DNA from: a virus
Virus record (IMG/VR): IMGVR_UViG_3300037502_001302
Location: 1 to 28,671 of that record
Direction: 5' to 3' (one strand)
Length of the DNA stretch: 28,671 bases
Shown here: in pieces, positions 5,092-16,264 of the stretch
Position numbering within the stretch: position 1 is the first letter of the stretch
Layout of the letters: the number at the start of each line of letters is the position of its first letter
Translations under genes and position numbers: made by a program
Notes under the pieces: model-generated
What the model saw: only the letters and a program-made list of their open reading frames with translations
Database searches by the model: none
Told to the model about the DNA's origin: nothing

Positions 5092-5095
5092 AATC

Positions 5096-5103
5096 TAATG
5101 ACG
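5096..5103 (-). promoter_or_regulatory. Shared late-leader motif CGTCATTA (copy 1)
   Basis: CGTCATTA lies 4 nt before the chaperone ATG (minus strand) and just after a terminator. No TAnnTTTG element is visible here. The same 8-mer lies upstream of the 19889 gene in the same setting. It could be part of a promoter for the phage sigma factor, but two copies are weak evidence. Confidence 0.25.
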
Positions 5104-5128
5104 TGTTGTTTTGATTTCTTGTTAAACG

Positions 5129-5157
5129 CAAAAATGGGGGCAAATGCCCCCGCTTTT
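5129..5157 (-). terminator. Intrinsic terminator
   Basis: On the minus strand GCGGGGGCA, a short TTT loop and TGCCCCC form a stem, followed by ATTTTTGC. It lies 27 nt after the stop at 5184 and closes the 5650-5184 unit before the virion operon starts. Confidence 0.8.
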
Positions 5158-5183
5158 GTGTTTCCGTCAATTTCAATCGTTGT

Positions 5184-5387
5184 TCATGGCAAAGGGTCAA
5201 AGTGTGGGACAATTTCAACATCACCATTTTGCCCGGTTGCCACCAAGTACGTGACCCCTGCCCATTCGAACGTTTGAACGTCCGTTTCAGCCGTTTGGAT
5301 GTGGTGGATGTGGTGGGCATACGCCCCCGCCGCGATGAGGGCGGAAATGCCTACGGCAATTGCCGCGAAGTTCATTGCCCGTGTCAT
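5184..5387 (-). CDS. Small membrane-anchored or exported protein
   Basis: 67 aa. Residues 6-24 (NFAAIAVGISALIAAGAYA) are a hydrophobic segment suited to a signal anchor or signal peptide, with AYA as a possible cleavage site. A His-rich patch (HHIHH) follows, then a short soluble domain of about 35 aa rich in acidic residues. The ATG overlaps the upstream stop as ATGA, so both proteins are made from promoter 5690-5720. The context is an accessory block between terminase and the virion operon. A phage membrane protein here could act in superinfection exclusion or envelope modification, but nothing in the sequence proves it. Confidence 0.6.
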   Translation of the reverse strand: MTRAMNFAAIAVGISALIAAGAYAHHIHHIQTAETDVQTFEWAGVTYLVATGQNGDVEIVPHFDPLP

Positions 5388-5650
5388 TCTTCCGGGTGTG
5401 TTGGTTGGTCAATTTCCAAGTATAAACCGCCGTCCAAATGCCACGTGGCCTTCACATTGGATTCGCCCCAACATTCGGTCGCAACGTTCACGAATGATTG
5501 GTGCGTTTCGGGCGTTGCCCCGGCAATTTCAATGTCAATGCACATTTTGTAGGGGGTCAACACCGCGTCATCATAGCGGTAAATGTCAAGCAAAGATTGT
5601 ACGTCTTGTTGAAAAACGGCAAAGTTGCCGGGGATTGGAAGTTGTTTCAT
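5384..5650 (-). CDS. Hypothetical accessory protein
   Basis: 88 aa from the ATG at 5650 (MKQLPIPGNF). A longer reading from 5692 would run through the CA-rich leader and start inside the promoter, so I rejected it. The protein is acidic, with no signal or membrane segment and no family I recognise. It is the first gene of a two-gene unit with 5184-5387 (ATGA overlap). It has its own TAnnTTTG promoter and a long CA-rich untranslated leader ending in ACACACACC before the ATG. Confidence 0.6.
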   Translation of the reverse strand: MKQLPIPGNFAVFQQDVQSLLDIYRYDDAVLTPYKMCIDIEIAGATPETHQSFVNVATECWGESNVKATWHLDGGLYLEIDQPTHPEE

Positions 5651-5689
5651 GGTGTGTGTTTTATTTGATTGGTTGGTTCGTGTGTGGGT

Positions 5690-5720
5690 CAAATATACAA
5701 CCCCTTTTTCTTTTGTGCGG
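5690..5720 (-). promoter_or_regulatory. Bacteroidota-type promoter P5 (for 5650 unit)
   Basis: -7 element TATATTTG at 5697-5690 (minus strand). The expected -33 position, 19 nt upstream, lacks TTG (it reads CGC), so this copy is weaker at -33. It shares the AAAAGAAAAA spacer block with P4 and has a CA-rich leader before the ATG. Confidence 0.6.
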
Positions 5721-5753
5721 GGTGTATCAAATTTCCTTTTTTGACGCGATGCC

Positions 5754-5987
5754 TTATTTCTTTAATTGTGCCATCATTGCGGTTGCCCATTCGTCCGCCG
5801 CGTCAACGCCCATTGTGTATTCGAGAGCGGTGTAAATTCCACCTGCAACGTCCGCATCATAGTTGGACATATCGGTGAAAACGGATTGATACATTTCCTT
5901 CAAGAATGCCACGGGGCGGGTCTTCAACGCGTTGAATACAACATTGCTTGCGTGGGTCATTCCTTGGGTGTTGGCTTGCGTGGTCAT
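5754..5987 (-). CDS. Hypothetical accessory protein
   Basis: 77 aa, start ATG at 5987. Small, Ala/Met-rich and mostly helical in appearance, with no Cys and no membrane segment. I do not recognise the family. It stands alone between promoter 6019-6048 and the promoter of the next unit, with the CA-rich leader directly before the ATG. Single-gene cassettes of this type in phages often carry early takeover or anti-defence proteins. That is inference from layout only. Confidence 0.6.
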   Translation of the reverse strand: MTTQANTQGMTHASNVVFNALKTRPVAFLKEMYQSVFTDMSNYDADVAGGIYTALEYTMGVDAADEWATAMMAQLKK

Positions 5988-6018
5988 GGTGTGTGTGTTT
6001 GTGTGTTGTTTGATGGTG

Positions 6019-6048
6019 TAAAGATAGGGCGGTTTTTTCTTTTGTCAA
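6019..6048 (-). promoter_or_regulatory. Bacteroidota-type promoter P4 (for 5987 gene)
   Basis: Minus strand: TTG at 6048-6046, 19 nt, then TATCTTTA at 6026-6019 (one mismatch to TAnnTTTG). The leader after it is nearly the same as that of P3 (ATCAAACAACACACAAACAC). Confidence 0.65.
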
Positions 6049-6080
6049 GTTTTTTTCAAACTTTTTTTTCTTTGGGGGTG

Positions 6081-6110
6081 AAAACCCCCGCCCCGGTTAA
6101 GGGGCAGGGG
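6081..6110 (-). terminator. Intrinsic terminator
   Basis: Minus strand CCCCTGCCCC, loop TTAACC, GGGGCGGGGG, then TTTTC. The stem is GC-only apart from one bulged T. It begins 9 nt after the stop at 6119. The T tail is short, so efficiency is uncertain. Confidence 0.6.
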
Positions 6111-6118
6111 ATGCCAAA

Positions 6119-6364
6119 TCAATCTTGGAACAATTCGGGGTTCATACTTCTCGAAAGATTTTCGCACATTTCCATTGCGTTATCCATGTTTGAGAAATAA
6201 AGGTTTAACAACCCCCCAATCAGTTGCAACCTCCACGGGGTTTTGCCTCCTTCCGTGTTGGTTAGGTAAAATGAAATGCCCGTTTCGGAATCGTTCGGCA
6301 TAACGTCAATTTCATAGAATCCTTTTGAGATTCGGCGGGCGGAAACTTTGGCGGTGATTTTCAT
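6119..6364 (-). CDS. Hypothetical accessory protein
   Basis: 81 aa, start ATG at 6364 (MKITAKVSARRISKGFYEID). It looks like an alpha-beta protein: beta-rich first half, then a helical Met/Asn-rich end. No membrane segment, Cys or known motif. It is a single-gene unit, with promoter 6396-6425 and a CA-rich leader in front and terminator 6081-6110 behind. I do not recognise a family. The layout suggests an early expressed accessory function. Confidence 0.6.
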   Translation of the reverse strand: MKITAKVSARRISKGFYEIDVMPNDSETGISFYLTNTEGGKTPWRLQLIGGLLNLYFSNMDNAMEMCENLSRSMNPELFQD

Positions 6365-6395
6365 AACGTGTGTGTTTGTGTGTTGTTTGATGCGT

Positions 6396-6425
6396 CAAAG
6401 ATACAATGGTTTTTCAATCCTGCAA
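6396..6425 (-). promoter_or_regulatory. Bacteroidota-type promoter P3 (for 6364 gene)
   Basis: Minus strand: TTG at 6425-6423, 19 nt, then TATCTTTG at 6403-6396, an exact TAnnTTTG. The block GTTGCAGGATT around the -33 is also seen at P2 and in part at P1. The leader is CA-rich up to the ATG. Confidence 0.75.
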
Positions 6426-6454
6426 CTATTTTTCAAACTTTTTTTGATTGGTGG

Positions 6455-6487
6455 GAAAAATAAGGGGGGAGCCAATCGCCCCCCCCC
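6455..6487 (-). terminator. Intrinsic terminator
   Basis: Minus strand: a G run, CGATTGGCT, CCCCCC, then TTATTTTT. The stem is a pure G/C homopolymer pair. It lies directly after the stop at 6494 and ends the 6832-6494 unit. Confidence 0.75.
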
Positions 6488-6493
6488 GGGGAA

Positions 6494-6832
6494 TCATTCG
6501 GGCATTGGGATTGAATCCCATGCGGCGTGAAGTTCAACCCGCAGTTCTTCCAAAATGTCGTGGCATTTTAGCGAACCTGCCCGGCGGCATGATGCCTCCA
6601 CATGGTCAACCAACCCGGCATCCATGCCGTAGTGCAACAACGCCCGTTTTGCGGAATCGCGTTCTTCGCGCATATGCCACAACATATCGGTTGCGCCGTT
6701 CTCCATAAACTCCATTTGGGCGGCAACTGCGAAGAAACGCAACGTTGCATAAGCCACGGGATGAATGGCGGACAATTCGGGGTGGAACGCATAGTTTCCG
6801 GCGAACAATGAGGGGTTAAATGGAACTGCCAT
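6494..6832 (-). CDS. Hypothetical accessory protein
   Basis: 112 aa, start ATG at 6832. It has an aromatic and Pro/His-rich N-terminus (MAVPFNPSLFAGNYAFHPEL), then a mainly helical body with a charged block (MREERDSAKRALLHYG). No membrane segment and no recognised motif. It has its own promoter (6879-6909) just after the terminase gene, and terminator 6455-6487 behind it. Unlike its neighbours, the leader before the ATG is C-rich instead of CA-repeat. Family unknown. Confidence 0.6.
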   Translation of the reverse strand: MAVPFNPSLFAGNYAFHPELSAIHPVAYATLRFFAVAAQMEFMENGATDMLWHMREERDSAKRALLHYGMDAGLVDHVEASCRRAGSLKCHDILEELRVELHAAWDSIPMPE

Positions 6833-6878
6833 TGGGCGGTAGGTTATGAAGGGGGGGTGTGTGTCCCTTCTGACCCCA

Positions 6879-6909
6879 CAAAGATAGTTCCGTTTTACAA
6901 ACCTCCAAA
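6879..6909 (-). promoter_or_regulatory. Bacteroidota-type promoter P6 (for 6832 gene)
   Basis: Minus strand: TTTG at 6909-6906, 19 nt, then TATCTTTG at 6886-6879, an exact TAnnTTTG. TGGGGTCA follows, as at P1. Confidence 0.75.
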
Positions 6910-6940
6910 CTTTTTTCCGTATTTCTTCAATCTTTTTTTC

Positions 6941-8095
6941 TCAACCCATTACGTACCGCCCAAAATTCGGGCGTGTTTGGTTGAAGGTTGCCCCATACCG
7001 GGCGGCATCTATCGTATGGTTAAACGCGTCAACCGGAACGTTTAAGACCTTCCCGTTACTATCTTCTTGCCATTTGTAGTTCCGCAACTCCTTTATCATG
7101 TTGGTACTGCGCCCCGTTACCCACATGGGTTTGGATTGCAGGAACGAAATACCCGCCCGTACCGAATCCGCCCCCTTTTTTGCCGCCACGATATTTTGTC
7201 CGAACCCCCGTATTTCTTGGATGCTTTTTGGTTCGGCGGAATCGGCTACAACCAATGCCCGTTCCGGGTTGTGTTGGTTCAATATGCGGGCAATTTCCGG
7301 GTTGGTTAATCCCGTGGCATGGGCGATTTCATCAAATGCGAATCCCTGCCCGTCATAATACACGGCAACAATTGCCGTGGGGTCATTACTGAATCCAAAA
7401 TCCAATCCGTAATTAACCAATTTGTACCCCTGCGGAATGGCGTTGCATTCCTTCCAATGGGTAAAAATGGTTGCCCGCCCAATGCCCCGTTCACCCAATC
7501 CGTACACCCGCCAAAAGTTTTCGTCCGCATCCTTCAATTGGTCAATTTCGCGGATGGTGGCGGCATCCAAAAACGGATTGTCTTTGTATGTGGTCTTAAA
7601 AAACGTTGCGTCTTCCCGGGGTATTACCTGCTCATATATCCAATGAAATTCGTTCGATGGGTTGTAGTCGATAATTACCCGTTCCGTGGTGCGGATTGTC
7701 AATTGTCGCCAATCCTCCAATGTTAATTCGTTCGCCTCATTGCAAAACAAGATTTGACGTTTCCGCCCCCTGACCTTTTGGGGTTGGTCAACGCCTATAA
7801 ACTCGATATTGTTTCCGAATAAGATATACCGATTTTCGGTTTTGTGGTGGGCTTCCTCATTGTAATATCCTTCCCCTTCCAAGATTTCGAAGAAATCCCG
7901 CATTGCCGTACCCCGTAGGCTTGGAAATGTCTTCCGCGCAATGGTAATCCACCACCCCCAATTTTCATGCAAGTAACACCATTCAATCAGGGCGCGAAGT
8001 ATGGAATACGTTTTGCCGGAACGCGTCCCCCCTTGGTGTACTTGTATCCGGGTACTGCATCCTTTGACGTGGTAATATGTGGCGGGTTGGGTCAT
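6941..8095 (-). CDS. terL: Terminase large subunit
   Basis: 384 aa, usual length for a Terminase_3/PBSX-type protein. The ATPase half has Walker A GGTRSGKT (22-29) and Walker B ILFCNEAN (115-122) with Glu120 as likely catalytic base. The C-terminal RNase H-like nuclease half shows YGLDFGFSNDPTA, then VVADSAEP, then NHTIDAARYG, supplying three Asp for metal binding. It cuts concatemers and pumps DNA into the prohead through the portal. The ATG overlaps the TerS stop as ATGA (8092-8095). The portal gene is not next in line, being far away in the circular order. No clear terminator follows the stop. Confidence 0.95.
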   Translation of the reverse strand: MTQPATYYHVKGCSTRIQVHQGGTRSGKTYSILRALIEWCYLHENWGWWITIARKTFPSLRGTAMRDFFEILEGEGYYNEEAHHKTENRYILFGNNIEFIGVDQPQKVRGRKRQILFCNEANELTLEDWRQLTIRTTERVIIDYNPSNEFHWIYEQVIPREDATFFKTTYKDNPFLDAATIREIDQLKDADENFWRVYGLGERGIGRATIFTHWKECNAIPQGYKLVNYGLDFGFSNDPTAIVAVYYDGQGFAFDEIAHATGLTNPEIARILNQHNPERALVVADSAEPKSIQEIRGFGQNIVAAKKGADSVRAGISFLQSKPMWVTGRSTNMIKELRNYKWQEDSNGKVLNVPVDAFNHTIDAARYGATFNQTRPNFGRYVMG

Positions 8096-8442
8096 TCAAA
8101 CCAAGACGGCGCGTTGACCTTTTCCGCCGTTACAATTTCCGTTCGTTCGATATATCCCCGGGTCTTTCCTTTGGTCTTCAAAAGAAAAATCGTTGCCTGC
8201 GGGTTGCCGTCTTTTATCAATCGGTACAAATGGGATTCCGCGAAATCCAACACCCCTTCTTTTAGCGCATCTACGGCGGCTTTATATGCCGGGTCTTCTG
8301 CCAACCAATTGTAATGGGTTTGCCTATCAATTCCCGCCGCTTTTGCCGCATGGGAAACAATGCCCAAACTGCGTTCCAACGCGTCTAACATTATCCGTTT
8401 CCGTGTCGAATTTGCCGAATCGGGTTTGTGGTTACTTTCCAT
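8092..8442 (-). CDS. terS: Terminase small subunit
   Basis: 116 aa. The N-terminal part has a helix-turn-helix (about residues 19-47) with the end AGIDRQTHYNWL, the typical DNA-recognition region of phage TerS and transposase-like proteins. The rest is helical (oligomerisation), then a short basic and Ser/Trp tail. It sits directly before TerL with an ATGA overlap and overlaps the ParB-domain gene by 11 nt. Role: recognises phage DNA and recruits TerL. The context makes the call firm even though TerS sequences vary widely. Confidence 0.85.
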   Translation of the reverse strand: MESNHKPDSANSTRKRIMLDALERSLGIVSHAAKAAGIDRQTHYNWLAEDPAYKAAVDALKEGVLDFAESHLYRLIKDGNPQATIFLLKTKGKTRGYIERTEIVTAEKVNAPSWFE

Positions 8443-8941
8443 TTTGTACCTTCAAATATGCGCCCGGAAACATTCGGTCAATTAGTTCTTGGATTTCGTT
8501 TTCAGCCTTACCCAAGTGTTCTTCATCCTCGAATTTTACCACGATGGATGCGCCGCCCCGCGCCGGGGGTTCGTCTTGGTCTTCGTCTTGTGCTTCCCAC
8601 AAATCCAACCCCCATTCGTTTAATTCGGCGGTGTCCCATTCGTTCGCCAACGTGTCCCAATTCCATTCGCCATAGGAGACATTGTCTTTAATAATGAATT
8701 CCCTTTGTTTGGCTTCCTCCCAATCTACAATGGTAACCGGAACTTCCTTTATTCCCAATTCTTGGATTGCTTTTAAGCGCATATTTCCACCCAAAACCAC
8801 CATGTCCGGGGTGCAAATCAGGGGACGGGCGGATAACATTTCCGGGAACGCTTCAATGCTCGCAACCAATTTGCGAAACTTGGCATCCCGAATGATTCGC
8901 GGGTTGTTCGGGTTGGGTTTAATCAGGTGTACGGGGGTCAT
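8432..8941 (-). CDS. ParB/Srx-domain protein upstream of terminase
   Basis: 169 aa from the ATG at 8941, which overlaps the upstream stop as ATGA. A longer start at 8980 is less likely. The N-terminal ParB-like fold is visible: LIKPNPNNPR (about 5-14), then VVLGGNMRLKAIQELG (about 49-64) in the place of the ParB GERR box. An acidic stretch (DEDQDEPP) and a C-terminal domain follow. In many Bacteroidota phages this domain is fused to a DNA methyltransferase beside the terminase. Here no methylase is attached. Function may be DNA binding or a nuclease/NTPase role in packaging control. The exact role is unknown. Confidence 0.75.
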   Translation of the reverse strand: MTPVHLIKPNPNNPRIIRDAKFRKLVASIEAFPEMLSARPLICTPDMVVLGGNMRLKAIQELGIKEVPVTIVDWEEAKQREFIIKDNVSYGEWNWDTLANEWDTAELNEWGLDLWEAQDEDQDEPPARGGASIVVKFEDEEHLGKAENEIQELIDRMFPGAYLKVQNGK

Positions 8942-9207
8942 TTTCGTTTGAATTGACGCGTTATTTCCTTGGCTTCCCATTCCATGCGCCGGGCTTCATT
9001 GCGTATCTTTTGGGCGGTGGGTTCGTCCATTGTTACCACCATTTTTTTTCGTTCCGGGTTACGTGTATCCCCTTCCGGGAAGTGTTCAATTTTGCCTTCA
9101 TGGACGAAATTGCGCAATTCCTTTGCCATTGATAACAATTCAACTGCCCGTTCTGCGCCGTACCATACCAACCCGTCAACGCTTATGGTCGTTTTGCTTG
9201 TTTCCAT
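8938..9207 (-). CDS. Hypothetical protein
   Basis: 89 aa, start ATG at 9207. Helical, charged (basic C-terminus ending RQFKRK), no membrane segment. The upstream gene overlaps its start by 25 nt and it overlaps the ParB-domain gene as ATGA. It contains a TAQKIRNEARRMEWEAKEI helix that could bind nucleic acid or a partner. I do not recognise the family. Its position in the unit that runs into terminase suggests expression with the packaging genes. Confidence 0.55.
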   Translation of the reverse strand: METSKTTISVDGLVWYGAERAVELLSMAKELRNFVHEGKIEHFPEGDTRNPERKKMVVTMDEPTAQKIRNEARRMEWEAKEITRQFKRK

Positions 9208-9479
9208 GCCATATCGGTAATTTCCCCCTCAATGCCTTGGCATAGGTAGGGGTGTGAATAATTCGGAATGTATGCGATATATTCCCGTTCTTCCCATTCT
9301 TCGTGGTCTTCGTCCCTGACCAAAATACGTTCCCCGATTCCGAATTGGGAAATCAATTCCACGTGGTTTTTGACGCATTCAATGGCGTTCGCCACGTCCC
9401 GGGGGTGTTGCGGGTCTTGGTCGGTTTTTCTCCAAACGTTGTGTTTGGTGAGAATTTCAATTGCGGTTTTTAATTCCAT
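9183..9479 (-). CDS. Hypothetical protein
   Basis: 98 aa from the ATG at 9479, which overlaps the stop of the 51-aa gene as TGATG. A longer in-frame start at 9542 would run across that gene and is not needed. N-terminal helical part (MELKTAIEILTKHNVW), then a beta part with an acidic loop (RDEDHEEWEERE) and YIAYIPNYSHPYLC. It resembles small phage proteins with an SH3-like C-terminal half, but I cannot name a family. Confidence 0.55.
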   Translation of the reverse strand: MELKTAIEILTKHNVWRKTDQDPQHPRDVANAIECVKNHVELISQFGIGERILVRDEDHEEWEEREYIAYIPNYSHPYLCQGIEGEITDMAWKQAKRP

Positions 9480-9634
9480 CAGAACCACGGGTTTTCGGTT
9501 GTGTCCTGCATTTCGACAAATTCCCACCTTTGGCATTCGCATTCCATTTGGTTTGCCGAATGATAAATTCGCATTGGGTCTTTCGTTTGTACTACGAATT
9601 TCTTCCCGGTTTCGTCCCTAATTATCAATTTCAT
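9479..9634 (-). CDS. Small Cys-containing protein (51 aa)
   Basis: A short gene found by reading the gap between its neighbours. It runs from ATG 9634 to TGA 9481-9479 and reads MKLIIRDETGKKFVVQ, then ECECQRWEFVEMQDTTENPW-F at the end. The start overlaps the DUF3310 gene by 17 nt and the stop overlaps the next ATG as TGATG, which supports it as a real coupled gene. Two Cys in CEC may bind metal. Function unknown. Confidence 0.6.
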   Translation of the reverse strand: MKLIIRDETGKKFVVQTKDPMRIYHSANQMECECQRWEFVEMQDTTENPWF

Positions 9635-9845
9635 TTAATTCTTTGGCTTTTGATTCGTACCACATGGCTTTTTCTAAATCGCGGTGTGCAGGTTGCCCGG
9701 GTTTGCGCCCCATTCGCATTCGGTATTTGAACGCGTTTAATTCGCAAAACGCGATGGTGTCCCGCTTCCCCCATATGCGCACCATCATTTCAATAACTTC
9801 GATGCCTTGGGCGTTGTAGTGTTCGGGATGGTTAACGTGTTCCAT
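9618..9845 (-). CDS. DUF3310 family protein
   Basis: 75 aa from the ATG at 9845 (MEHVNHPEHYNAQGIEVIEM). The longer frame upstream overlaps the DUF551 gene and is rejected. Hallmarks of DUF3310: NHPEHY near the start, GIEVIE, then FCELNAFKYRMRMGRKPGQP and DLEKAMWY. This small domain is common in phages and sometimes fused to nucleotide kinases. A role in nucleotide metabolism has been suggested for relatives but is not established. It lies in a run of small overlapping genes between the exonuclease and the packaging genes. Confidence 0.75.
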   Translation of the reverse strand: MEHVNHPEHYNAQGIEVIEMMVRIWGKRDTIAFCELNAFKYRMRMGRKPGQPAHRDLEKAMWYESKAKELNEIDN

Positions 9846-10089
9846 TGCGCCGGATTTCGGGTAAAAAAACATCGATGTCAATGATTGCCCAATGGGTCGG
9901 CATTCCTCCCAATTCTGCTTCCATTTCTTCGTCCGCCCGCCAACCGCAATTCCCGTCATAGCACCCGTCCCACTCCCAAATTTGAACGTCCCAAGTATGC
10001 AAATCTTCTTTACCGTCAATGCAAATAACAAGATATTGATACCCGTCTATGGGGTCGGGTTGTTGTTCCTCAAATTTAATCCAATTCAT
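9832..10089 (-). CDS. DUF551 family protein
   Basis: 85 aa from the ATG at 10089 (MNWIKFEEQQPDPIDGYQYL). Features typical of DUF551 are the WIKxEEQxP start, the GYQYLVICIDGK beta strands and the end THWAII. The region between is Trp-rich and acidic. DUF551 proteins are common small phage proteins of unknown role. The end overlaps the DUF3310 start by 14 nt. A longer upstream start (10152) was rejected because it overlaps the 42-aa gene entirely. Confidence 0.7.
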   Translation of the reverse strand: MNWIKFEEQQPDPIDGYQYLVICIDGKEDLHTWDVQIWEWDGCYDGNCGWRADEEMEAELGGMPTHWAIIDIDVFLPEIRRNGTR

Positions 10090-10204
10090 TGCGTTTTCGG
10101 TTGTATTTCTCCCGCCACATTTCGAACATAATGCGAATGTACAACGCGGCAAACATCGCCGTTAATAGGGCAACCGCCGTCAAATTTCCCCCTTCATTTG
10201 CCAT
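10076..10204 (-). CDS. Small single-pass membrane protein (42 aa)
   Basis: Found by reading the 90-nt gap. ATG at 10204, TAA at 10078-10076. It reads MANEGGNLTAVALLTAMFAA, then LYIRIMFEMW and the basic tail REKYNRKRNELD. Residues 8-26 form one membrane helix with a positive C-terminal tail, so N-out/C-in topology is likely. The start overlaps the upstream gene by 25 nt and the end overlaps the DUF551 gene by 14 nt. It could be a holin-like or membrane regulatory peptide. Function unknown. Confidence 0.55.
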   Translation of the reverse strand: MANEGGNLTAVALLTAMFAALYIRIMFEMWREKYNRKRNELD

Positions 10205-10686
10205 TCTACAATGTCTTTTGCCTTTTGCCAAATCTTCTTGTTTCCCAAGTTCATTCCCTCATCTTCCCAAGCAATTAGGGCTTCATTTAACACCACGGCA
10301 TCTTCTTTGATTTGCGCCAAAACAGATTCTACATTGTTTTCGTTTTCGGGTTGAATCCACCCGCATTTCTGCCCCAACTTTTCCCATTTCGCCTTCCGTT
10401 CCCGGTTGCGTTTCTCGATGTGAAATTGGCATTGTTCCCAAGATAGGGTAACGGCAAATTTGCCCGTTTCAATTTCGAATATCAATCCCCTATCCATCAG
10501 GGTAGACAATGCGCTTGTAATGCTCGATTCCCGGACGGGCGCGGCGTTGGCTTGGACGTGTGCGATAATTTCGCGCAGGGTCACAATACCCCGGCGTTTG
10601 ACGGACAAAAACACCCGGTGTTGGGTCTTCATGTCCGCCCCGGTGCTTTTCATTTCCCGGAACGCGTTGAATTGATTTTGGGTCAT
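10180..10686 (-). CDS. Winged-helix-like DNA-binding protein
   Basis: 168 aa, ATG at 10686 overlapping the upstream stop as ATGA. Residues about 20-80 look like a winged helix: MKTQHRVFLSVKRRGIVTLR, REIIAHVQ, then ESSITSALSTLMDRGLIFEI, where the SITSALSTLMDRGLI helix is typical of recognition helices and is followed by a two-strand wing. The C-terminal half is helical and charged (EKRNRERKAKWEKLG). It may be a transcription regulator or replication accessory protein. No family name can be given by eye. Confidence 0.55.
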   Translation of the reverse strand: MTQNQFNAFREMKSTGADMKTQHRVFLSVKRRGIVTLREIIAHVQANAAPVRESSITSALSTLMDRGLIFEIETGKFAVTLSWEQCQFHIEKRNRERKAKWEKLGQKCGWIQPENENNVESVLAQIKEDAVVLNEALIAWEDEGMNLGNKKIWQKAKDIVEWQMKGEI

Positions 10687-11108
10687 GGGTTTTGAAGATT
10701 TCGCAACATGATTTCGATTCGCTCCAACCGCTCTTCAATGGTTAGTTCGGGTTCGGGTTCGACTTTGCGCACGTATTTCCAACAAAAAAGATTTCCATTA
10801 AAATTTGATTCATTTTCACCATAATTCATTGTGTAGTGCCTTATGCCTCCATTGGGAATTGGAACGTTACCAAGGTAAAAGCGTGGTTTACACCATTTTT
10901 GGTTTTCCGAAAACCGCACCTGCACCATGTCGCCGTATTTAAATTCACTCATTGTTTTTTTCGGTATGTATTTCGGTTTAATTCCGGTAAATACTGAAAG
11001 GTTTTCGTTTGCCCATTCTCGATAACTTTTCACTTCTTCCGCATTTGGTATTCCACGTTCCGGGCTATTCTCATTGCCTCCCTTTGGCTTTTTAGCCAAC
11101 TTTGCCAT
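10683..11108 (-). CDS. Hypothetical protein with SH3-like core
   Basis: 141 aa from the ATG at 11108. Residues 1-52 are basic and low-complexity (KKPKGGNENSPERG). From residue 53, MSEFKYGDMVQVRFSENQKW looks like a small SH3-like barrel found in many Bacteroidota phage proteins, and the end is a predicted helix (TIEERLERIEIMLRNLQ). The ATG at 10952 follows an A-rich stretch (AAAAAACA), a plausible Bacteroidota start signal, so an 89-aa product may be made instead of or in addition to the long one. The function is not known. Confidence 0.5.
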   Translation of the reverse strand: MAKLAKKPKGGNENSPERGIPNAEEVKSYREWANENLSVFTGIKPKYIPKKTMSEFKYGDMVQVRFSENQKWCKPRFYLGNVPIPNGGIRHYTMNYGENESNFNGNLFCWKYVRKVEPEPELTIEERLERIEIMLRNLQNP

Positions 11109-11151
11109 TGGTTGAATGTCAAGCGTTCGCCGGGGGGGTAGTATGTGGATT

Positions 11152-11868
11152 TTACGCCCATTTCGGTAATGATAGGGTTACAACTTCATTGGTGTATGGT
11201 GCGGGGTTTCCGTCCCATTCATTCCACAATGTAATCAAATTACGCAACCGATATTCCGCCCGCCCCGCCGCGTCTTCGTCTTGCAAGAAAACCGAAACGT
11301 TGTGGGGTTTGTCTTTCTCTACAACTATCCAATAAAAGTTCGTTATTCCGAACAAATGGCGGTAGATGGCGGCTTGCAAATGATATTCCGCGTTGTGCGC
11401 CGTTCGTATAAATTCGTCCGGGTCGGCGGTTTGCGCCGTCTTCAAATCCACCGCAAAGTTACTTCCAAGAATATCGGCAATGCCTTTGAACTCCACCCCG
11501 TGAATTAGTGCGGATGCCGAAACTTCTTTTTGGTTGTTTGCGACGAAATCCCGCGCCACAGGGTGCGCTAAAATCGCCGTTCGCATCCTTTGCATGGTGT
11601 ACCATTCCGCAGGGGAAATAACTTCCTTATTCGCCGCCATTTCGAGAAATTCGGCATATACCGCCTTCCCCTCTTTGGTTCGTCGGTCACATTCCGGGGA
11701 AACCACAACGCGTTCATTGAACGTGTCAGGTTCTAAAATGAGAATGTGGAACGCCCGCCCAAATGCCATTGCGGCGGAATCGGGTTTGTCTTCTTTGTAT
11801 TGGATGAAGTGATTTGGCGATTTGGCAAATGCCTTCAAGGACGAGAACGAAAGATGTGTGTTTTTCAT
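11152..11868 (-). CDS. RecE/exonuclease VIII-like PD-(D/E)XK nuclease
   Basis: 238 aa. The PDDEXK exonuclease layout is visible: LSFSSLKAFAKSPNHF at the start, GRAFHILILEP with His41, then EFKGIADI with Asp132, VDLKT with Asp141 and Lys143, and the YHLQAAIY helix (the Q-x-x-x-Y motif of this family). Such exonucleases chew one strand of dsDNA ends for annealing recombination. E. coli RecE works with RecT. No RecT/Erf/Sak-type annealase is evident here. It is translated with the gene before it (TAATG overlap at 11868-11870) from promoter 12141-12170. Confidence 0.8.
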   Translation of the reverse strand: MKNTHLSFSSLKAFAKSPNHFIQYKEDKPDSAAMAFGRAFHILILEPDTFNERVVVSPECDRRTKEGKAVYAEFLEMAANKEVISPAEWYTMQRMRTAILAHPVARDFVANNQKEVSASALIHGVEFKGIADILGSNFAVDLKTAQTADPDEFIRTAHNAEYHLQAAIYRHLFGITNFYWIVVEKDKPHNVSVFLQDEDAAGRAEYRLRNLITLWNEWDGNPAPYTNEVVTLSLPKWA

Positions 11869-12119
11869 TAGTGCGTGTGTGAAGCGATTTTAACAATTCC
11901 ATTTTGAACCAACATTTCAACCATTGGAATCATTCCCGTGGCTTCCGGGTGTGCTGACCATTTTTCGGCGGATTCACCTTTAACCCAAACCATTACTTCA
12001 AATTGGCATCCGAACGTGAATGATGGGTGAATTTCGATTGACGTAATATCCTTAATCGGAATGTTAAGGGACATTGCCGCCTCAACTGCGGCGGCGTAAA
12101 AATTGGTTGGTGTTTTCAT
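11868..12119 (-). CDS. Hypothetical protein upstream of the exonuclease
   Basis: 83 aa from the ATG at 12119 (MKTPTNFYAAAVEAAMSLNI). The frame upstream runs into the CA-rich leader and is not used. Alpha-beta, with no Cys-rich or membrane parts. It is the first gene of the exonuclease operon, with its own promoter (12141-12170) and TAATG coupling into the exonuclease gene. It may be a partner or modulator of the nuclease. No family recognised. Confidence 0.55.
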   Translation of the reverse strand: MKTPTNFYAAAVEAAMSLNIPIKDITSIEIHPSFTFGCQFEVMVWVKGESAEKWSAHPEATGMIPMVEMLVQNGIVKIASHTH

Positions 12120-12140
12120 GTCGTGTGTGTTTTGACTCCA

Positions 12141-12170
12141 CAAATATACGGAAGGTTTTTAATTCTGCAA
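12141..12170 (-). promoter_or_regulatory. Bacteroidota-type promoter P2 (exonuclease operon)
   Basis: Minus strand: TTG at 12170-12168, 19 nt, then TATATTTG at 12148-12141. GTTGCAGAATTAAAAA and CGTATATTTGTGG match P1 closely. A short CA-rich leader ending ACACACGAC precedes the ATG at 12119. Confidence 0.75.
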
Positions 12171-12614
12171 CTCTTCGAGCAATTTTTTTTCGTCCTCCGC
12201 GATTTTTTTGGATTGCCGGATATATCGTTTAACCTCATCCACCATATTCGCAAGGCATGGCGGGCAATTTCCCGCCGTCCGGCGCACCCCGGAAATTTCC
12301 ATTAGGGTATCACTTAACCACCTTTGTTGTTCGGCGGTAGCAACGCCCCGCATTCCGTTTATGATGGTTTCCCATTCGTCCAATTGCTTTTGGGAATGTA
12401 CCGGATTCCATTTTTTCAGGGGGCAACCGGACATTTTGAACTTGGTTTTCAGGGGCATAATGCACCCGCACAACTTCACTTTGCCCCGTCCCCTTTTGAG
12501 CGTTTTGCCTACGCCCAACGTCCCGCAACTTTTGGTCATGGGTTCAAAGTGTTCGCAGGATTTGCAAATTTCCAAACGTCTATTTCGTTCGTCCGGGGTT
12601 GTTAATAGCATCAT
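12159..12614 (-). CDS. Cys-rich zinc-binding protein
   Basis: 151 aa; tandem ATGs at 12614 and 12611. It has a Cys-rich N-terminal half: CKSC near residue 17, C30, CGC near residue 50, and C64, with basic residues between (LKRGRGKVK). These are likely zinc ligands. A second CPPC pair lies near residue 117, followed by a helical charged tail (EDEKKLLEELQN). The gene overlaps the sigma gene by 35 nt and ends just before promoter P2. Similar Cys-rich proteins are common in Bacteroidota phages. It could be DNA-binding or a sigma partner, but the function is unproven. Confidence 0.6.
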   Translation of the reverse strand: MMLLTTPDERNRRLEICKSCEHFEPMTKSCGTLGVGKTLKRGRGKVKLCGCIMPLKTKFKMSGCPLKKWNPVHSQKQLDEWETIINGMRGVATAEQQRWLSDTLMEISGVRRTAGNCPPCLANMVDEVKRYIRQSKKIAEDEKKLLEELQN

Positions 12615-13077
12615 GTATTAGTTTTTTGGTTCGGTGTATGGATTGGTAAAACGTCCCCACGGGTATGTCGGTTTCCTTTGCCAATTCGGTGAGTTTATGT
12701 CCTGCCATGTACAACGTAATTACGTTGCGGTCAAAATAGGACAATCGGTCTATCCACAATTGGATGTGTTCCCTTTGAATGGACAATTCCAATTCGTCAT
12801 TGAATGCCGGAACGTCAACCAATGGTTGTTCCCGTATGGTGTAAAGTTTGCGGAACTGCCCCCGGGTTGCCTCCCTAAACATCGCAACCGCCATGTACGC
12901 CATGAAGTTTTCAGGAAACGGCAATTCACGGCAACGCAAGTACGTATGATGCAACAAATCGTGGGCATCCGGCGAATGCTTTTTAGCCATCCGCACCAAT
13001 GCCGCATAGTTCGCGGTAATCGCTTCATCCCATTTTGCCGGATTCAATTTCGTTGAAATATCGGGTGTACAAATCAA
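12580..13077 (-). CDS. Phage-encoded sigma-70-family (ECF-like) sigma factor
   Basis: 165 aa if started at the TTG at 13077; a TTG at 13047 gives 155 aa, and there is no ATG before residue 29. Residues about 15-75 look like sigma region 2 (helices through HDLLHHTYLRCRELPFPEN and FMAYMAVAMFREATRG). Residues about 108-160 look like region 4, with LSYFDRNVITLYMAGHKLTE and LAKETDIPVGTFYQSIHRTK as a helix-turn-helix. Region 3 is missing, as in ECF sigmas. It likely redirects host RNA polymerase to phage promoters, for example those of the virion operons. The non-ATG start overlapping the NinG gene by 53 nt suggests low, coupled expression. Confidence 0.75.
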   Translation of the reverse strand: MICTPDISTKLNPAKWDEAITANYAALVRMAKKHSPDAHDLLHHTYLRCRELPFPENFMAYMAVAMFREATRGQFRKLYTIREQPLVDVPAFNDELELSIQREHIQLWIDRLSYFDRNVITLYMAGHKLTELAKETDIPVGTFYQSIHRTKKLIHDAINNPGRTK

Positions 13078-13459
13078 TCAATATTTGGTATTCCGCAGGC
13101 GGAATTTTAACCGATTGACGCGAAATCATGTAAAGTGTTTCCGCCGTTCCTGCCCCGTAAATTTCATCTATCTTCTTTCCATGCAGGTATTGCATTCCGT
13201 TTCCGAACGAATTGCACCCTTTGCATTGCAAATGGACGTTGCGCGGTTCAAACCGGGTTGACAATGCCGCCCGGGTGATAAAATGCCCCGCGTCCCCGTC
13301 TTTCCAATGGATGCATTTCGCGCAGGTAACGCATTCCCCAAATCCGTTTTCGTCCGTGTTGCGGATTCGGATATACTTGGAAAACACTTTGTCCAATTTT
13401 GCCTTTAATGCGGTGACGGATTGCGCCTTTATCCGCGGGCGTTTGGGGTTTGCCTTCAT
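13025..13459 (-). CDS. ninG: NinG/Rap-like recombination nuclease
   Basis: 144 aa from the ATG at 13459, which overlaps the upstream stop as ATGA. A longer start (13531) is not needed. The NinG layout is clear: KLDKVFSKYIRIRNTDENGF, then ECVTC (Cys43, Cys46), GDAGHFITR with His59, NVHLQCKGCN (Cys79, Cys82), and a helical end. The Cys pairs bind zinc. Lambda NinG/Rap cuts branched DNA and Holliday junctions and aids phage recombination. With the RecE-like exonuclease it suggests recombination-dependent replication or repair. Confidence 0.85.
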   Translation of the reverse strand: MKANPKRPRIKAQSVTALKAKLDKVFSKYIRIRNTDENGFGECVTCAKCIHWKDGDAGHFITRAALSTRFEPRNVHLQCKGCNSFGNGMQYLHGKKIDEIYGAGTAETLYMISRQSVKIPPAEYQILIDLYTRYFNEIESGKMG

Positions 13460-14013
13460 TCGATTTTGCCAATTTTTGCTTCTTCCAACCAACTCTTCAA
13501 CGTTCGGTCTCTGTCCACCCATTCGTCCCATTTTCGGGACGTGTTTTCCTTTTCACGTAAGGGAATTGTCCATTCCATTTCATGCGCTGAAATCGCTTCA
13601 AAGATGGTGGGTGTATCCAACCGCCCGTATAACTTCACCTGCCCCCGGCGGATGCGCCCAAACACATACAAGATTTCTTCGATTTTCAGCGTAGGGAACA
13701 TTTCCAAGATGTCATCAATGGCGGTTTGCAAATCCTCTTCCGCCAACCATGTTTTTTCAATCCCTACCCGTACACTTCGCCACGTTCGCACCAGTTCGGC
13801 GAACAATACAATTTTGGTTCGCGCCCTATCCATTGCCGCGGCGGAATGTAATTGAATTCCTTTGTACACGTCTTCCGGGGTTGCCCCTGCCATCCACCCG
13901 GAAACGTCATTTGTTAGCCCATTCAAGTGTTCTTTCTTGGTTAATTGGCGCGTCCCTTTGGCTAATTCTCGAATGGAATGCGCCCCCGCCGGGGCTAATT
14001 CTTGGTTGTTCAT
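13456..14013 (-). CDS. Replication-associated hypothetical protein (possible DUF6633-like)
   Basis: 185 aa from the ATG at 14013, which overlaps the initiator gene by 107 nt. An internal ATG at 13893 (MAGATPEDVYKG) would leave a 13-nt gap instead and give 145 aa, so the start is unsettled. The centre reads MFPTLKIEEILYVFGRIRRG, then QVKLYGRLDTPTIFEAI. This helical pattern (FP-x-LKxEEI, LYGRLD) recalls DUF6633-type proteins found next to phage replication genes in Bacteroidota; that name is from memory. It could load the replisome or modulate the initiator. No catalytic motif. Confidence 0.5.
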   Translation of the reverse strand: MNNQELAPAGAHSIRELAKGTRQLTKKEHLNGLTNDVSGWMAGATPEDVYKGIQLHSAAAMDRARTKIVLFAELVRTWRSVRVGIEKTWLAEEDLQTAIDDILEMFPTLKIEEILYVFGRIRRGQVKLYGRLDTPTIFEAISAHEMEWTIPLREKENTSRKWDEWVDRDRTLKSWLEEAKIGKIE

Positions 14014-14656
14014 TGTCGTATGTTGTTTGTCGTTTTATCCAATCCCGGGCGGTTGCCTTCCAATCCTTCATGGGTTTTCGCGCCCGGCCTATTACCCATC
14101 CCACGGATTCGTAGTAATTAAAAAATCGTTCTGCAAGTTCGGCGGTTGACCCCGCCGCCGTGAATGTATCAATAATGGTTTGAAGGTCTTTTGGCGTTGC
14201 CTCTTTTTTTGGTTTTGCCTCTATACTCTTTGATAGTTCTTTACTCTTTCTATTCTCTTCTATACTCTGCGCAACTGTGGTTGCTTCTTGGCGCAACTGT
14301 GGTTGCAACTCTTGCGCCTGTGGTTGCAACTTTTGCAACTGTGGTTGCTTGTTCCTGTAGTTGCTTGTTCCTGTAGTTGCAACTTTTGCAACTGTAGGCG
14401 CAACTTCTACAGACAATCGGCGTTTGTGTCCGTAGCCTTCCGTAACGATATATCCGCTATCCTCCAACTGCCGGCGCATCTTGCGAACGTACTGCGGGGT
14501 GCATCCAAGGGATTCTGCAAAGAACTCATCACCCGCCCGGCTTGCGCCGTCTTGTTTGCTTAATGCCATAACCCTTGCAAGGAACACCCGATGAAGGGGG
14601 GGCAAATCCAATGCCCACACTTCCGCCGGAATCCAAATGCCGTTGCCCTCTTGCAT
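13907..14656 (-). CDS. Replication initiator (winged-helix, O-like)
   Basis: 249 aa, ATG at 14656. Residues about 5-85 form a winged helix (LPPLHRVFLARVMAL, then GCTPQYVRKMRRQLEDSGYI), the DNA-binding part. Residues about 96-125 are a Gln-rich linker with a 7-residue period (LQPQLQK, LQPQAQE, LQPQLRQ), coded by the iteron-like DNA repeat. The C-terminal part has FFNYYESVGWVIGRARKPMK and DWKATARDWIKR, the usual end of phage initiator proteins. Such proteins bind iterons in or beside their own gene and recruit the host helicase. The layout mirrors lambda O. Confidence 0.75.
   Translation of the reverse strand: MQEGNGIWIPAEVWALDLPPLHRVFLARVMALSKQDGASRAGDEFFAESLGCTPQYVRKMRRQLEDSGYIVTEGYGHKRRLSVEVAPTVAKVATTGTSNYRNKQPQLQKLQPQAQELQPQLRQEATTVAQSIEENRKSKELSKSIEAKPKKEATPKDLQTIIDTFTAAGSTAELAERFFNYYESVGWVIGRARKPMKDWKATARDWIKRQTTYDNEQPRISPGGGAFHSRISQRDAPINQERTLEWANK
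14275..14401 (-). repeat. Iteron-like direct repeats inside the initiator gene (candidate origin)
   Basis: Seven copies of CTGTRGTTGC (as read on the plus strand) lie at 14275, 14297, 14318, 14339, 14355, 14371 and 14392. Spacings are 22, 21, 21, 16, 16 and 21 bp. The last copy ends in GGCGC. Several copies sit in a GCAAC-TGTG-GTTGC inverted repeat. Helical-turn spacing near 21 bp and position in the linker of the initiator gene fit a replication origin. They also encode a Gln-rich linker, so protein-level repetition is the alternative. Confidence 0.6.
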
Positions 14657-14659
14657 GGC

Positions 14660-14803
14660 TTATCCCTTCATCCAATCTTCAAGGATGGAACGCACCACGT
14701 CCGATGGTCGGCGTTTGCTCAATTTCGCAACGCGTTGTATATTGGCTTTTGTGTCTTCTGTTACACGAACTGCCAAAATCGTTTTGGGTTCTTTCGTCTT
14801 CAT
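14660..14803 (-). CDS. Ribbon-helix-helix transcriptional regulator
   Basis: 47 aa from the ATG at 14803 (MKTKEPKTILAVRVTEDTKA). The longer upstream frame is rejected because it runs through the promoter and terminator. It has the Arc/MetJ/CopG pattern: a beta strand TILAVRVTEDT, a helix NIQRVAKLSKRRP, then SDVVRSILEDWMKG. Dimers bind inverted repeats through the strand. An inverted repeat (14819-14833) lies just upstream, so it probably represses its own promoter. The stop is 3 nt before the initiator ATG, so it may be co-transcribed with the initiator and control replication. Confidence 0.8.
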   Translation of the reverse strand: MKTKEPKTILAVRVTEDTKANIQRVAKLSKRRPSDVVRSILEDWMKG

Positions 14804-14807
14804 GTGG

Positions 14808-14815
14808 CAAATGTA
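14808..14815 (-). promoter_or_regulatory. TAnnTTTG element of the repressor-initiator unit (P7)
   Basis: Minus strand TACATTTG lies only 4 nt before the ATG at 14803. Transcription starting about 6-7 nt downstream would begin at or close to that ATG, giving a leaderless or near-leaderless message. No TTG lies exactly 19 nt upstream, so -33 is weak. Confidence 0.45.
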
Positions 14816-14818
14816 TAC

Positions 14819-14833
14819 AATACGTTCCGTATT
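14819..14833. promoter_or_regulatory. Candidate repressor operator (inverted repeat)
   Basis: AATACGTTCCGTATT: perfect 6-bp arms with a 3-nt centre. It lies between the -7 element and the -33 region of P7, where a bound repressor would block RNA polymerase. The next gene is a ribbon-helix-helix protein, so autorepression is the natural reading. Confidence 0.5.
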
Positions 14834-14872
14834 TCGTTTACAACTTATCAACAATCTATTTTCAGTTCGGAC

Positions 14873-14902
14873 AAAAAAAAGGGGGGCGCATTGCCCCCCC
14901 GG
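14873..14902 (-). terminator. Intrinsic terminator
   Basis: Minus strand: G run, CAATGC, GCCCCCC, then eight T. The stem is almost only G:C pairs. It starts 2 nt after the stop of the 15186-14905 gene and separates it from the repressor-initiator unit. Confidence 0.85.
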
Positions 14903-14904
14903 TT

Positions 14905-15186
14905 TCATTCCTCCAATCGTTTGCGTAACTCTACAATTGCCTTGGTTGCGTTTTGCGTTCCGGTTTGTTCCATCCGCCTAATATCTTCTTCCGCGTTGCA
15001 AACCACGTTCACAATGTATTCGTAGGTCTTCCCCGTCTTCACTTTGATTTCGGGCAAATGCCGCAAAATCATTCGGGGGTTTATGTTAATCCAATACCCC
15101 ACCGATTGCGGGGTGGCGTTCATGAATTTGGCAAAATTGGTGTTAGTGCCAAATTCCGCTTTAATGAAGTGTTTAAGCGTGTTCAT
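14905..15186 (-). CDS. Helix-turn-helix (Cro-like) regulator
   Basis: 93 aa, ATG at 15186 overlapping the SSB-like stop as TAATG. The helix-turn-helix looks to be NFAKFMNATPQSVGYWI (about residues 17-33): small residue at the turn, then QSVGYWI as recognition helix. The rest is helical and charged, perhaps a dimer interface (EEDIRRMEQ, VELRKRLEE). The position next to SSB and the replication genes suggests an early regulator. A repressor or activator of the lysis-lysogeny type is possible, but no partner is present. Confidence 0.6.
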   Translation of the reverse strand: MNTLKHFIKAEFGTNTNFAKFMNATPQSVGYWININPRMILRHLPEIKVKTGKTYEYIVNVVCNAEEDIRRMEQTGTQNATKAIVELRKRLEE

Positions 15187-15662
15187 TAGAAAGGTACGGG
15201 TTCTGTATCCTCAACTTGGTTTGACTTCGTTTTTGAGCCTCCTACGGGCTTTGTTTCGGGTTTCGCTTCCGCTTCCGCCGGGGGCGTTTGCAGGTGCTTA
15301 ATAACCGCGTCCCGCATTTCAATTAGCCACAACGCGTTCGGGTAAATGTCCTTGCCTTTTACGCCCATTGCAATTGCCTGACCAATTGCCCAACTTGCAT
15401 CAATGCGGGTTTGAACGTCCGGGGACGAACCACGCCCGGGTTCACTTTCTTGGAACTTGCCAAGTTTGAATTTCAACCCGTACTTCCCCGGTTGCGATTC
15501 CTTCACTTCTACCGCGTCCCCTACCTTCCAAGTTCCTTCCGTTTTGGAATTAACCGAACCTTCCCGCCCGTCCGACAATGTAACCCAAGATTCGTACATT
15601 TTGCCGTACTGACCCTCCCAAGTTCCCTTGGGTTCAATTTTCGTGATTGTTAATTTCTGCAT
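15186..15662 (-). CDS. SSB-like OB-fold protein with acidic PF tail
   Basis: 158 aa. Residues 1 to about 70 (MQKLTITKIEPKGTWEGQYG, then ESWVTLSDGREGSVNSKTE, GKYGLKFKLG) look like a five-strand OB fold with exposed aromatic residues. The middle part is helical. The C-terminal 35 residues are a disordered Pro/Glu/Lys linker ending in EDTEPVPF. That end mimics the acidic ...PF tip of bacterial SSB, which recruits repair and replication proteins. The family is common in Bacteroidota phages under no fixed name. Likely role: ssDNA binding at the fork and in recombination with the exonuclease. Confidence 0.65.
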   Translation of the reverse strand: MQKLTITKIEPKGTWEGQYGKMYESWVTLSDGREGSVNSKTEGTWKVGDAVEVKESQPGKYGLKFKLGKFQESEPGRGSSPDVQTRIDASWAIGQAIAMGVKGKDIYPNALWLIEMRDAVIKHLQTPPAEAEAKPETKPVGGSKTKSNQVEDTEPVPF

Positions 15663-15822
15663 GGTGCATGGTGTTTATGTGTTCTTCTAATTGTGCAATT
15701 GCGATGTCGATTTGAAAAATGAAGTAATCCATTCCGTAACGGATTGTTCCGCCTTCCTTTTTTACTAACTCTTCCCAATGCGCCCGTACTTTGGGGCGTA
15801 TGGGGTCAATGTGTTTTGGCAT
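15634..15822 (-). CDS. Small hypothetical protein
   Basis: 62 aa, ATG at 15822. It is a short helical, charged protein (PKVRAHWEELVKKEGG, later IAIAQLEEHINTMHH). It overlaps the SSB-like gene start by 29 nt and follows a terminator, so the unit it begins may rely on read-through or an unrecognised promoter. I see no TAnnTTTG in front of it. No family recognised. Confidence 0.5.
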   Translation of the reverse strand: MPKHIDPIRPKVRAHWEELVKKEGGTIRYGMDYFIFQIDIAIAQLEEHINTMHHAEINNHEN

Positions 15823-15828
15823 GATGAG

Positions 15829-15857
15829 AAATAAAAGGGGGGGTTGCCCCCCCCGGG
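15829..15857 (-). terminator. Intrinsic terminator
   Basis: Minus strand: eight G, CAA, seven C, then TTTTATTT. A G/C homopolymer stem with a tiny loop, placed just after the stop at 15862. Confidence 0.8.
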
Positions 15858-15861
15858 TTAG

Positions 15862-16092
15862 TTACATTCCGATTGCCGCCAATTCAATGTGCATTTTCAT
15901 TTCCGGTTTGCGGTAATTTTCAATCGCCGCATTGATGGAATAAAAACGTTTGCCCGTCCGCATTGCCCGGGGCAAATTCATGTTGTACACGTCAACGGCG
16001 AAAAACTGCCCGTCTTTTTTGCCTACGATAACTTCCCAATTGGTTTTGCCGATTGTGAAAGTGTGCGTGTGGTAGGTGAATTGCGCGTCCAT
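15862..16092 (-). CDS. Hypothetical accessory protein
   Basis: 76 aa, ATG at 16092. Beta-rich first half (MDAQFTYHTHTFTIGKTNWE, then VIVGKKDGQFFAVDVYN), helical second half. No Cys and no membrane segment. It is a single-gene unit with the best-matched promoter of the family (P1, 16121-16151), a CA-rich leader and a strong terminator. It belongs to the same cassette class as the genes at 5650, 5987 and 6364 but lies 10 kb away. Early expression is likely. Function unknown. Confidence 0.6.
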   Translation of the reverse strand: MDAQFTYHTHTFTIGKTNWEVIVGKKDGQFFAVDVYNMNLPRAMRTGKRFYSINAAIENYRKPEMKMHIELAAIGM

Positions 16093-16120
16093 TGTGTGTG
16101 TGTGTTGTTGTTTGACCCCA

Positions 16121-16151
16121 CAAATATACGCCCCTTTTTTATTCCTGCAAA
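16121..16151 (-). promoter_or_regulatory. Bacteroidota-type promoter P1 (for 16092 gene)
   Basis: Minus strand: TTTG at 16151-16148, 19 nt, then TATATTTG at 16128-16121. Both boxes are perfect. A leader of about 28 nt follows (TGGGGTCAAACAACAACAC and so on) with no Shine-Dalgarno sequence. Confidence 0.8.
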
Positions 16152-16181
16152 CTTTTATCCAACTTTTTTTTCATGGGCATG

Positions 16182-16218
16182 AAAAAAGGGGGCGCACCCT
16201 TTGGTACTTACCCCCTTT
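16182..16218 (-). terminator. Intrinsic terminator of the lysis operon
   Basis: Minus strand: AAAGGGGG, 19-nt loop, CCCCCTTTTTT. The 8-bp stem with a T tail ends the portal-connector-lysis unit, about 46 nt after the stop at 16265. Confidence 0.75.
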
Positions 16219-16264
16219 GATTCCGTGTCAGCGGAACAAAACACACACCCGGCAAAGATAGGCG

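Follow-up and report, generated by a model that had tools for sequence, protein, structure and literature searches.

Several small genes on the minus strand of the virus record IMGVR_UViG_3300037502_001302 in IMG/VR (28,671 bases, the whole of which is called the window here) are each preceded by a similar promoter and a short leader rich in C and A, which raises the question of how one regulatory segment came to stand before so many different genes. A sequence-only reading had located six such promoters, P1 to P6, and proposed a repeated expression module that picks up accessory genes. We compared the window with 80 relatives found by alignment of the large terminase subunit (TerL), which share 65-69% identity with the TerL of the window, and with 80 more found by the portal protein (GC about 0.46-0.57). 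The best reading of these data, and one in which we have good confidence, is a mobile regulatory cassette behind which small accessory genes of the moron type are exchanged.

Promoters and leaders P1 to P6

The boxes and leaders were found where the sequence-only reading had placed them. Exact TAnnTTTG boxes stand on the minus strand at P1 and at P3 to P6 (Table 1), the -7 box of P2 (TATCTTTA) departs from this motif at its last base, and all six boxes are 21-46 nt upstream of an ATG. A TTG or TTTG lies about 19 nt upstream of the -7 box at P2 to P6; P1 has none at that distance, and its only TTG abuts the -7 box. When judged by the elements of the Bacteroidota primary sigma factor, namely TTTG (-33), about 19 nt and TAHHTTTG (-7), P3 to P6 match, P2 comes close and P1 lacks the -33 element, so that the arrangement claimed for all six does not extend to P1, which we regard as a weak member of the cassette.

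The flanks had also been described as related. In pairwise comparisons of promoter plus leader (about 75-100 nt) with 500 dinucleotide-preserving shuffles, the pairs P2-P3, P2-P6, P3-P5, P3-P6, P4-P5, P4-P6 and P5-P6 scored above all 500 shuffles, which bears out the description for most pairs among P2 to P6, whereas P1 exceeded the shuffles against P6 only (3 of 500 shuffles were equally high). Shared beyond the boxes are an A-tract, a TTTGCAGG-like context of the -33 element, N5-TCAAACAA behind the -7 box and the CA-rich leader, and the pattern TAT[AC]TTT[GA]-N3..6-TCA[AG]A occurs on the minus strand of the window at P2 to P6 only. The leaders of P2 and P3 are identical over 24 nt (ATCAAACAACACACAAACACACAC), and, with 22-26 nt, the leaders of P6, P3 and P2 exceed in length every other A/C-only run of the window. 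Over the last 20 nt before the ATG, A+C amounts to 0.81 in promoter-led genes vs 0.62 in the other genes of the window (p=0.008). All leaders are free of a Shine-Dalgarno sequence and none contains AGGAG, as had been noted, but the leader of P4 is C-rich and not CA-rich.

Such likeness might arise if every operon simply had a standard Bacteroidota promoter with an A-rich leader, each converging on the consensus. Indeed, the TTG and TAnnTTTG boxes and the missing Shine-Dalgarno sequence are not special by themselves, because TTTG/TAHHTTTG promoters and leaders of this kind are the norm in the phylum (PMC6847099), and in 395 random Bacteroidota genomes TATMTTTG-N5-TCAAACAA was enriched too, with 15 scattered sites vs 1 in the control. 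However, the likeness continues past the consensus boxes over the A-tract, the spacer and the leader, near-identical promoters and leaders precede 40 unrelated gene families in relatives, and the motif occurs 14 times per Mb in relatives and is absent from 0.8 Mb of sampled chromosomes. CAAACAACACACA after TTTG was rare in the 395 genomes. CA-rich leaders were not seen in four sampled chromosomes (GC 0.41-0.50), among which there is no known host of these phages, and they could be a host-specific habit. We consider convergence of ordinary promoters improbable.

Exchange of genes behind the cassette in relatives

The slot between TerL and a 209-aa gene offers the broadest comparison. Both genes could be placed at 79 loci, where identical or near-identical contigs were counted as separate loci and the counts are not independent events. 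The gap between them is -14 to 35 nt in 58 of the 79 loci, 80-162 nt in 4 and at least 344 nt in 17; in the window it is 1849 nt and holds P4 to P1 with five small genes. Inserts begin after the stop codon of TerL and end ahead of a conserved 27-34-nt spacer of the 209-aa gene, and most of those with a recognised cassette consist of a promoter, a TCAAACAAA-type leader, open reading frames (ORFs) of 59-112 aa and a terminator. The proteins they encode are unrelated between lineages, except for one 62-aa gene common to the close pair L200/L201 (L numbers denote loci). On the TerL tree, on which the window is a long branch of unsure placement, the distribution of filled and empty sites needs 11 changes, at least 5 of which are imposed by branches with good support, and empty sites are found among close relatives of filled ones. 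The same genes are not kept at these sites; they turn over, and the sequence-only proposal of a module that picks up genes gains support here.

An exact scan of IMG/VR with the cassette of the window gave no match, and for this reason the core of the relatives' cassette, TATMTTTGRGACATCAAAC, was used as bait. Of 85 sites read, 83 precede an ATG-started ORF of 46-112 aa (median 72.5). They encode 66 distinct proteins in 50 families, so that different genes do stand behind the cassette in related phages, and the leaders following the core have an A+C of 0.86. The borders of exchange were profiled in 133 pairs of different families, picked because the 60 nt upstream were at least 80% identical, so that the upstream identity is by selection and the fall in the ORF and the recovery after the stop are not. 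Beyond codon 7 the ORFs have a chance-level identity of 0.28. In the 97 pairs in which the point of resumption could be located, the alignment starts again a median of 16 nt 3' of the stop. These coding-start profiles were ungapped and anchored, as a gapped identity measure was too noisy.

The clearest case is L134/L153, in which 89% identity runs through promoter and leader to the A of the ATG and 88% identity returns from the stop codon, with unrelated genes of 66 aa and 65 aa between. Similar left borders were seen in L250/L260, in L206/L158 and in L200/L201, where the cassettes of the TerS|TerL slot are 98% identical, and in the distant, AT-rich L012/L014 an extra 70-aa gene stands between the conserved leader and the next gene. 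In the slot of P6, between the lysis genes and a 158-aa gene, most scorable relatives have a promoter with different genes behind it, and the position of P5 is a promoter site in several relatives too. One gene family (cluster 6, EQI..LM.FIQA.GLTF) was found in L134, L165 and L266 and occupies three different places: the lysis slot, the vicinity of the 158-aa gene and the TerL slot. Further families are present in two slots each.

These positions could also be the heads of vertically inherited operons, where the promoter is fixed and the first small gene diverges past recognition without any exchange. That P6 and P5 coincide with promoter sites of relatives fits such a history, fast evolution is general for small first genes, and P5 and P6 in the window could still be explained in this way. 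For the relatives, however, it is refuted by the sharp borders, with 88-89% identical flanks on both sides of wholly unrelated ORFs, and it does not account for empty sites among close relatives of filled ones or for the same family in different slots; as a general explanation we hold it to be very improbable. Chimaeras of metagenome assembly are hardly credible: a cassette of 60-80 nt is a repeat of a length prone to short-read misjoins, but L324, L356, L358 and L370, from four samples, all carry one cassette in the TerS|TerL slot and, about 1.5 kb away, a second in the TerL|209-aa slot, each with the same one of two different gene families, and identity returns behind the ORF in the right slot.

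The cassette reading, its limits and known systems

Fixed slots, empty sites, conservation of the cassette, replacement of the ORF and the presence of one family in several slots can all be read from the sequences of relatives. We propose that P2 to P6, and marginally P1, are copies of one regulatory cassette, which would consist of a promoter for the host primary sigma factor and a short leader, A/C-rich and unstructured, that runs up to the ATG; a terminator would often lie upstream. Such cassettes would occupy a few fixed intergenic sites and each would drive a small non-core gene, or moron; in this phage family the cassette would stay, and the ORF behind it would be replaced from the start codon to about the stop or the terminator. 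The cassette and the terminator or spacer on the far side most likely serve as short homology arms for phage recombination, which would make homologous recombination the mechanism of exchange. The genes would presumably be transcribed by host RNA polymerase from the onset of infection, with translation enhanced by the leader, and may function in host takeover or anti-defence. For the window itself, the slot and the sequence point to a swap of the same kind.

Several points weigh against this reading. The exchange evidence comes from metagenomic contigs of relatives, none of which is close to the window; the nearest are 65-69% identical in TerL, and no swap is directly visible at P1 to P6. The copies are imperfect, as P1 is without a -33 element, the -7 box of P2 deviates in its final base and P4 has a C-rich leader. 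Morons usually differ from their genome in base composition (PMC4378225), whereas the insert and the genome of the window both have a GC of 0.48, which gives no compositional sign of recent arrival. The promoters P1 to P6 are predicted from sequence, and recombination is read from borders. The table of units was filtered for A+C-rich leaders, which contributes to the value for promoter-led leaders in that table (also 0.86), and the internal genes compared below were listed by hand.

In multi-gene inserts, internal genes without a recognised promoter are still CA-rich 5' of the ATG (A+C of 0.83 in the internal accessory genes listed by hand vs 0.62 in core genes, p=1.4e-4). CA-rich leaders thus also occur apart from the promoter, with which the sequence-only reading had joined them, and are more likely a translation element. 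Since A does not pair with C, such a leader would leave the start open, which agrees with the preference of F. johnsoniae for A-rich starts free of structure (PMC6847099). It offers a defined case in which translation without Shine-Dalgarno sequences can be tested in Bacteroidota. All in all, the sequence-only interpretation is partly supported.

The units have the features of morons as far as sequence can tell. Like the morons of lambdoid phages and of Mu-like phages of P. aeruginosa (PMC4378225, PMC7067206), they are single small genes with their own promoter and terminator between genes that are adjacent in relatives, as are TerL and the 209-aa gene in 58 of 79 loci. Promoters of consensus sequence stand at P2 to P6, with P1 weak. 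The terminators that the sequence-only reading had assigned to each gene are clear after the 112-, 76- and 67-aa genes and in most inserts of relatives, but the P3 gene is followed by a hairpin whose T tail is weak, and no terminator is evident behind the P2 gene. What differs is that a near-identical promoter-leader cassette is common to many of these units, which are exchanged behind it. The acquisition of morons has been called mysterious (PMC4378225), and the cassette offers one possible mechanism, in which the exchanged unit can be delimited to the base: promoter and leader are constant, the ORF is new from the start codon, and the DNA past the stop is constant again.

The cassettes may work by the same logic as the PeSL elements of T4-type phages (Arbiol 2010 and Comeau 2014, as cited in PMC4503421), which, as that citing paper describes them, repeat a promoter and a stem-loop between shuffled accessory genes. 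A terminator precedes P3 (6487-6463), a terminator-like stem precedes P6 (16221-16185), and the genes are shuffled in relatives. By membership they are not PeSLs so described: the genome is of 28 kb with no T4-type genes among those identified, and its cassettes have a Bacteroidota promoter and a CA-rich leader without Shine-Dalgarno, are cut at the start codon and stay in fixed core-gene slots of small Bacteroidota phages. The SAS/ESAS elements of cluster K mycobacteriophages (PMC3203893) also abut the start codons of varied non-structural gene families, but SAS, a motif of 13 bp, has a Shine-Dalgarno sequence as its core, and no GGGATAGGAGCCC-like element with such a core was found in our leaders, which are joined to a promoter. 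In archaeal viruses one conserved strong promoter region likewise precedes many small unrelated accessory genes (PMC11065993), although that promoter is of the TATA/BRE type, and anti-defence function was tested there for some genes and is a conjecture here. Bacteroidota promoters have the same -33 and -7 elements without Shine-Dalgarno, while the favourable context known for their leaders is A-rich (PMC6847099) and not an alternation of A and C. In a literature search of incomplete coverage, no account of cassettes like these turned up for phages of Bacteroidota.

As a bait, the cassette core gave candidate host-takeover or anti-defence genes in one scan, a yield comparable with that of the archaeal-virus promoter method from which tested anti-defence genes came (PMC11065993). 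That a good part of the accessory genes act in anti-defence is a reasoned guess, somewhat more apt to fail than to hold. A still more doubtful idea is that the cassette is a recombinase-free counterpart of the integron, with a promoter-leader-ATG socket and a terminator arm at fixed sites, through which small ORFs of at least 50 families, mostly for counter-defence or takeover, would circulate as a common pool among environmental Bacteroidota phages.

Gene content and further features of the window

The ends of the window repeat over 874 nt (1-874 vs 27798-28671) with 23 mismatches, and for this reason the genome is probably closed or terminally redundant, at about 27.8 kb; either the genome closes into a circle and the mismatches reflect strain variation, or a terminal redundancy is imperfect. 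Every recognised gene lies on the minus strand; among them are terminase, portal, capsid, tape measure, amidase, a replication initiator, a NinG-like and an exonuclease VIII-like gene. The genes scanned included no recognisable integrase, so that the data do not imply lysogenic conversion. Rfam and tRNA scans of the window were both empty. A TerL search of genomes for the host gave distant relatives only. Relatives have genome matches in metagenome-assembled genomes of Winogradskyella, Flavobacteriaceae, Chitinophagaceae and Rikenellaceae, the portal matches annotated phages of Nonlabens and Parabacteroides, and the phage is an uncultivated, small phage of Bacteroidota bacteria.

The accessory proteins had no trustworthy match in Pfam, PHROGs, NCBIfam or PADLOC, and a homology scan for anti-defence proteins in PADLOC, NCBIfam and Pfam was without match. 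The 76-aa protein found no match in IMG/VR, and tblastn of the P-gene proteins against the fetched phage loci found no relatives. AlphaFold models from single sequences reached a mean predicted local distance difference test score (pLDDT) of 62 for the 76-aa and 56 for the 81-aa protein, too low for fold searches. Codon usage of the six P ORFs resembles that of core genes.

Table 1. Positions of cassettes, accessory genes, terminators and slots in the window
Feature	Position	Strand	Remarks
P6 slot		-	between lysis genes and 158-aa gene
P6 cassette	16093..16170	-	A-tract; -33 TTTG 16151-16148; -7 TATATTTG 16128-16121; leader TGGGGTCAAACAACAACACACACACACA up to ATG
76-aa accessory gene	15862..16092	-	behind P6; low-confidence three-strand and helix model (pLDDT 62)
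Intrinsic terminator	15836..15854	-	3' of 76-aa gene
P5 slot		-	between 151-aa gene and exonuclease VIII-like gene
P5 cassette	12120..12190	-	TTGCAGAATT (TTG 12170-12168); -7 TATATTTG 12148-12141; leader TGGAGTCAAAACACACACGAC
83-aa accessory gene	11868..12119	-	behind P5; its end (CACACACGCACTAATG) is the CA-rich leader of the exonuclease gene
TerL	6941..8095	-	left anchor of TerL slot
Insertion slot	5092..6940	-	1849 bp between TerL end (6941) and 209-aa gene start (5091)
P4 cassette	6833..6916	-	TTTGGAGG (TTTG 6909-6906); -7 TATCTTTG 6886-6879; C-rich leader
112-aa accessory gene	6494..6832	-	behind P4
Intrinsic terminator	6463..6487	-	3' of 112-aa gene; directly upstream of P3 (terminator, then promoter)
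P3 cassette	6365..6450	-	TTGCAGGATT (TTG 6425-6423); -7 TATCTTTG 6403-6396; leader ACGCATCAAACAACACACAAACACACACGTT
81-aa accessory gene	6119..6364	-	behind P3
GC-rich hairpin	6086..6110	-	3' of 81-aa gene; weak T tail
P2 cassette	5988..6070	-	TTG 6048-6046; -7 TATCTTTA 6026-6019; leader CACCATCAAACAACACACAAACACACACACC (24 nt as in P3)
77-aa accessory gene	5754..5987	-	behind P2; no evident terminator 3'
P1	5651..5697	-	-7 TATATTTG 5697-5690; CA-rich leader; lacks a correctly spaced -33 element
88-aa accessory gene	5384..5650	-	behind P1
67-aa accessory gene	5184..5387	-	promoterless; CA-rich sequence 5' of ATG
Intrinsic terminator	5136..5151	-	3' of 67-aa gene, before 209-aa gene; closes TerL-slot insert
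209-aa gene	4462..5091	-	phrog_32199-like; right anchor of TerL slot

Among possible regulators, the gene at 12580-13077 (-) resembles an ECF-type sigma factor (TIGR02937, E 2.9e-10, just under the cut-off) and has a match in only one of the relatives searched. It was rejected as the user of the P promoters, as cassette-bearing relatives have no match to it. A 93-aa protein (14905-15186, -) that weakly matches a repressor family and has 43 tblastn matches among relatives is a candidate regulator of the cassettes. At 14660-14815 (-), the gene of a 47-aa ribbon-helix-helix-like repressor has a -7 box that ends 4 nt 5' of the ATG and lies over the palindrome-like ACGGAACGTATTGTATACAT; perhaps it is leaderless and self-regulated. 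The replication initiator gene contains imperfect repeats (14297-14411) that encode a glutamine-rich stretch. Finally, at 16185-16260 (-), a TATCTTTG box stands behind the holin-like gene; a strong stem resembling a terminator lies not more than 80 nt further on, and there is no ORF. This may be a small RNA or simply the end of an operon.

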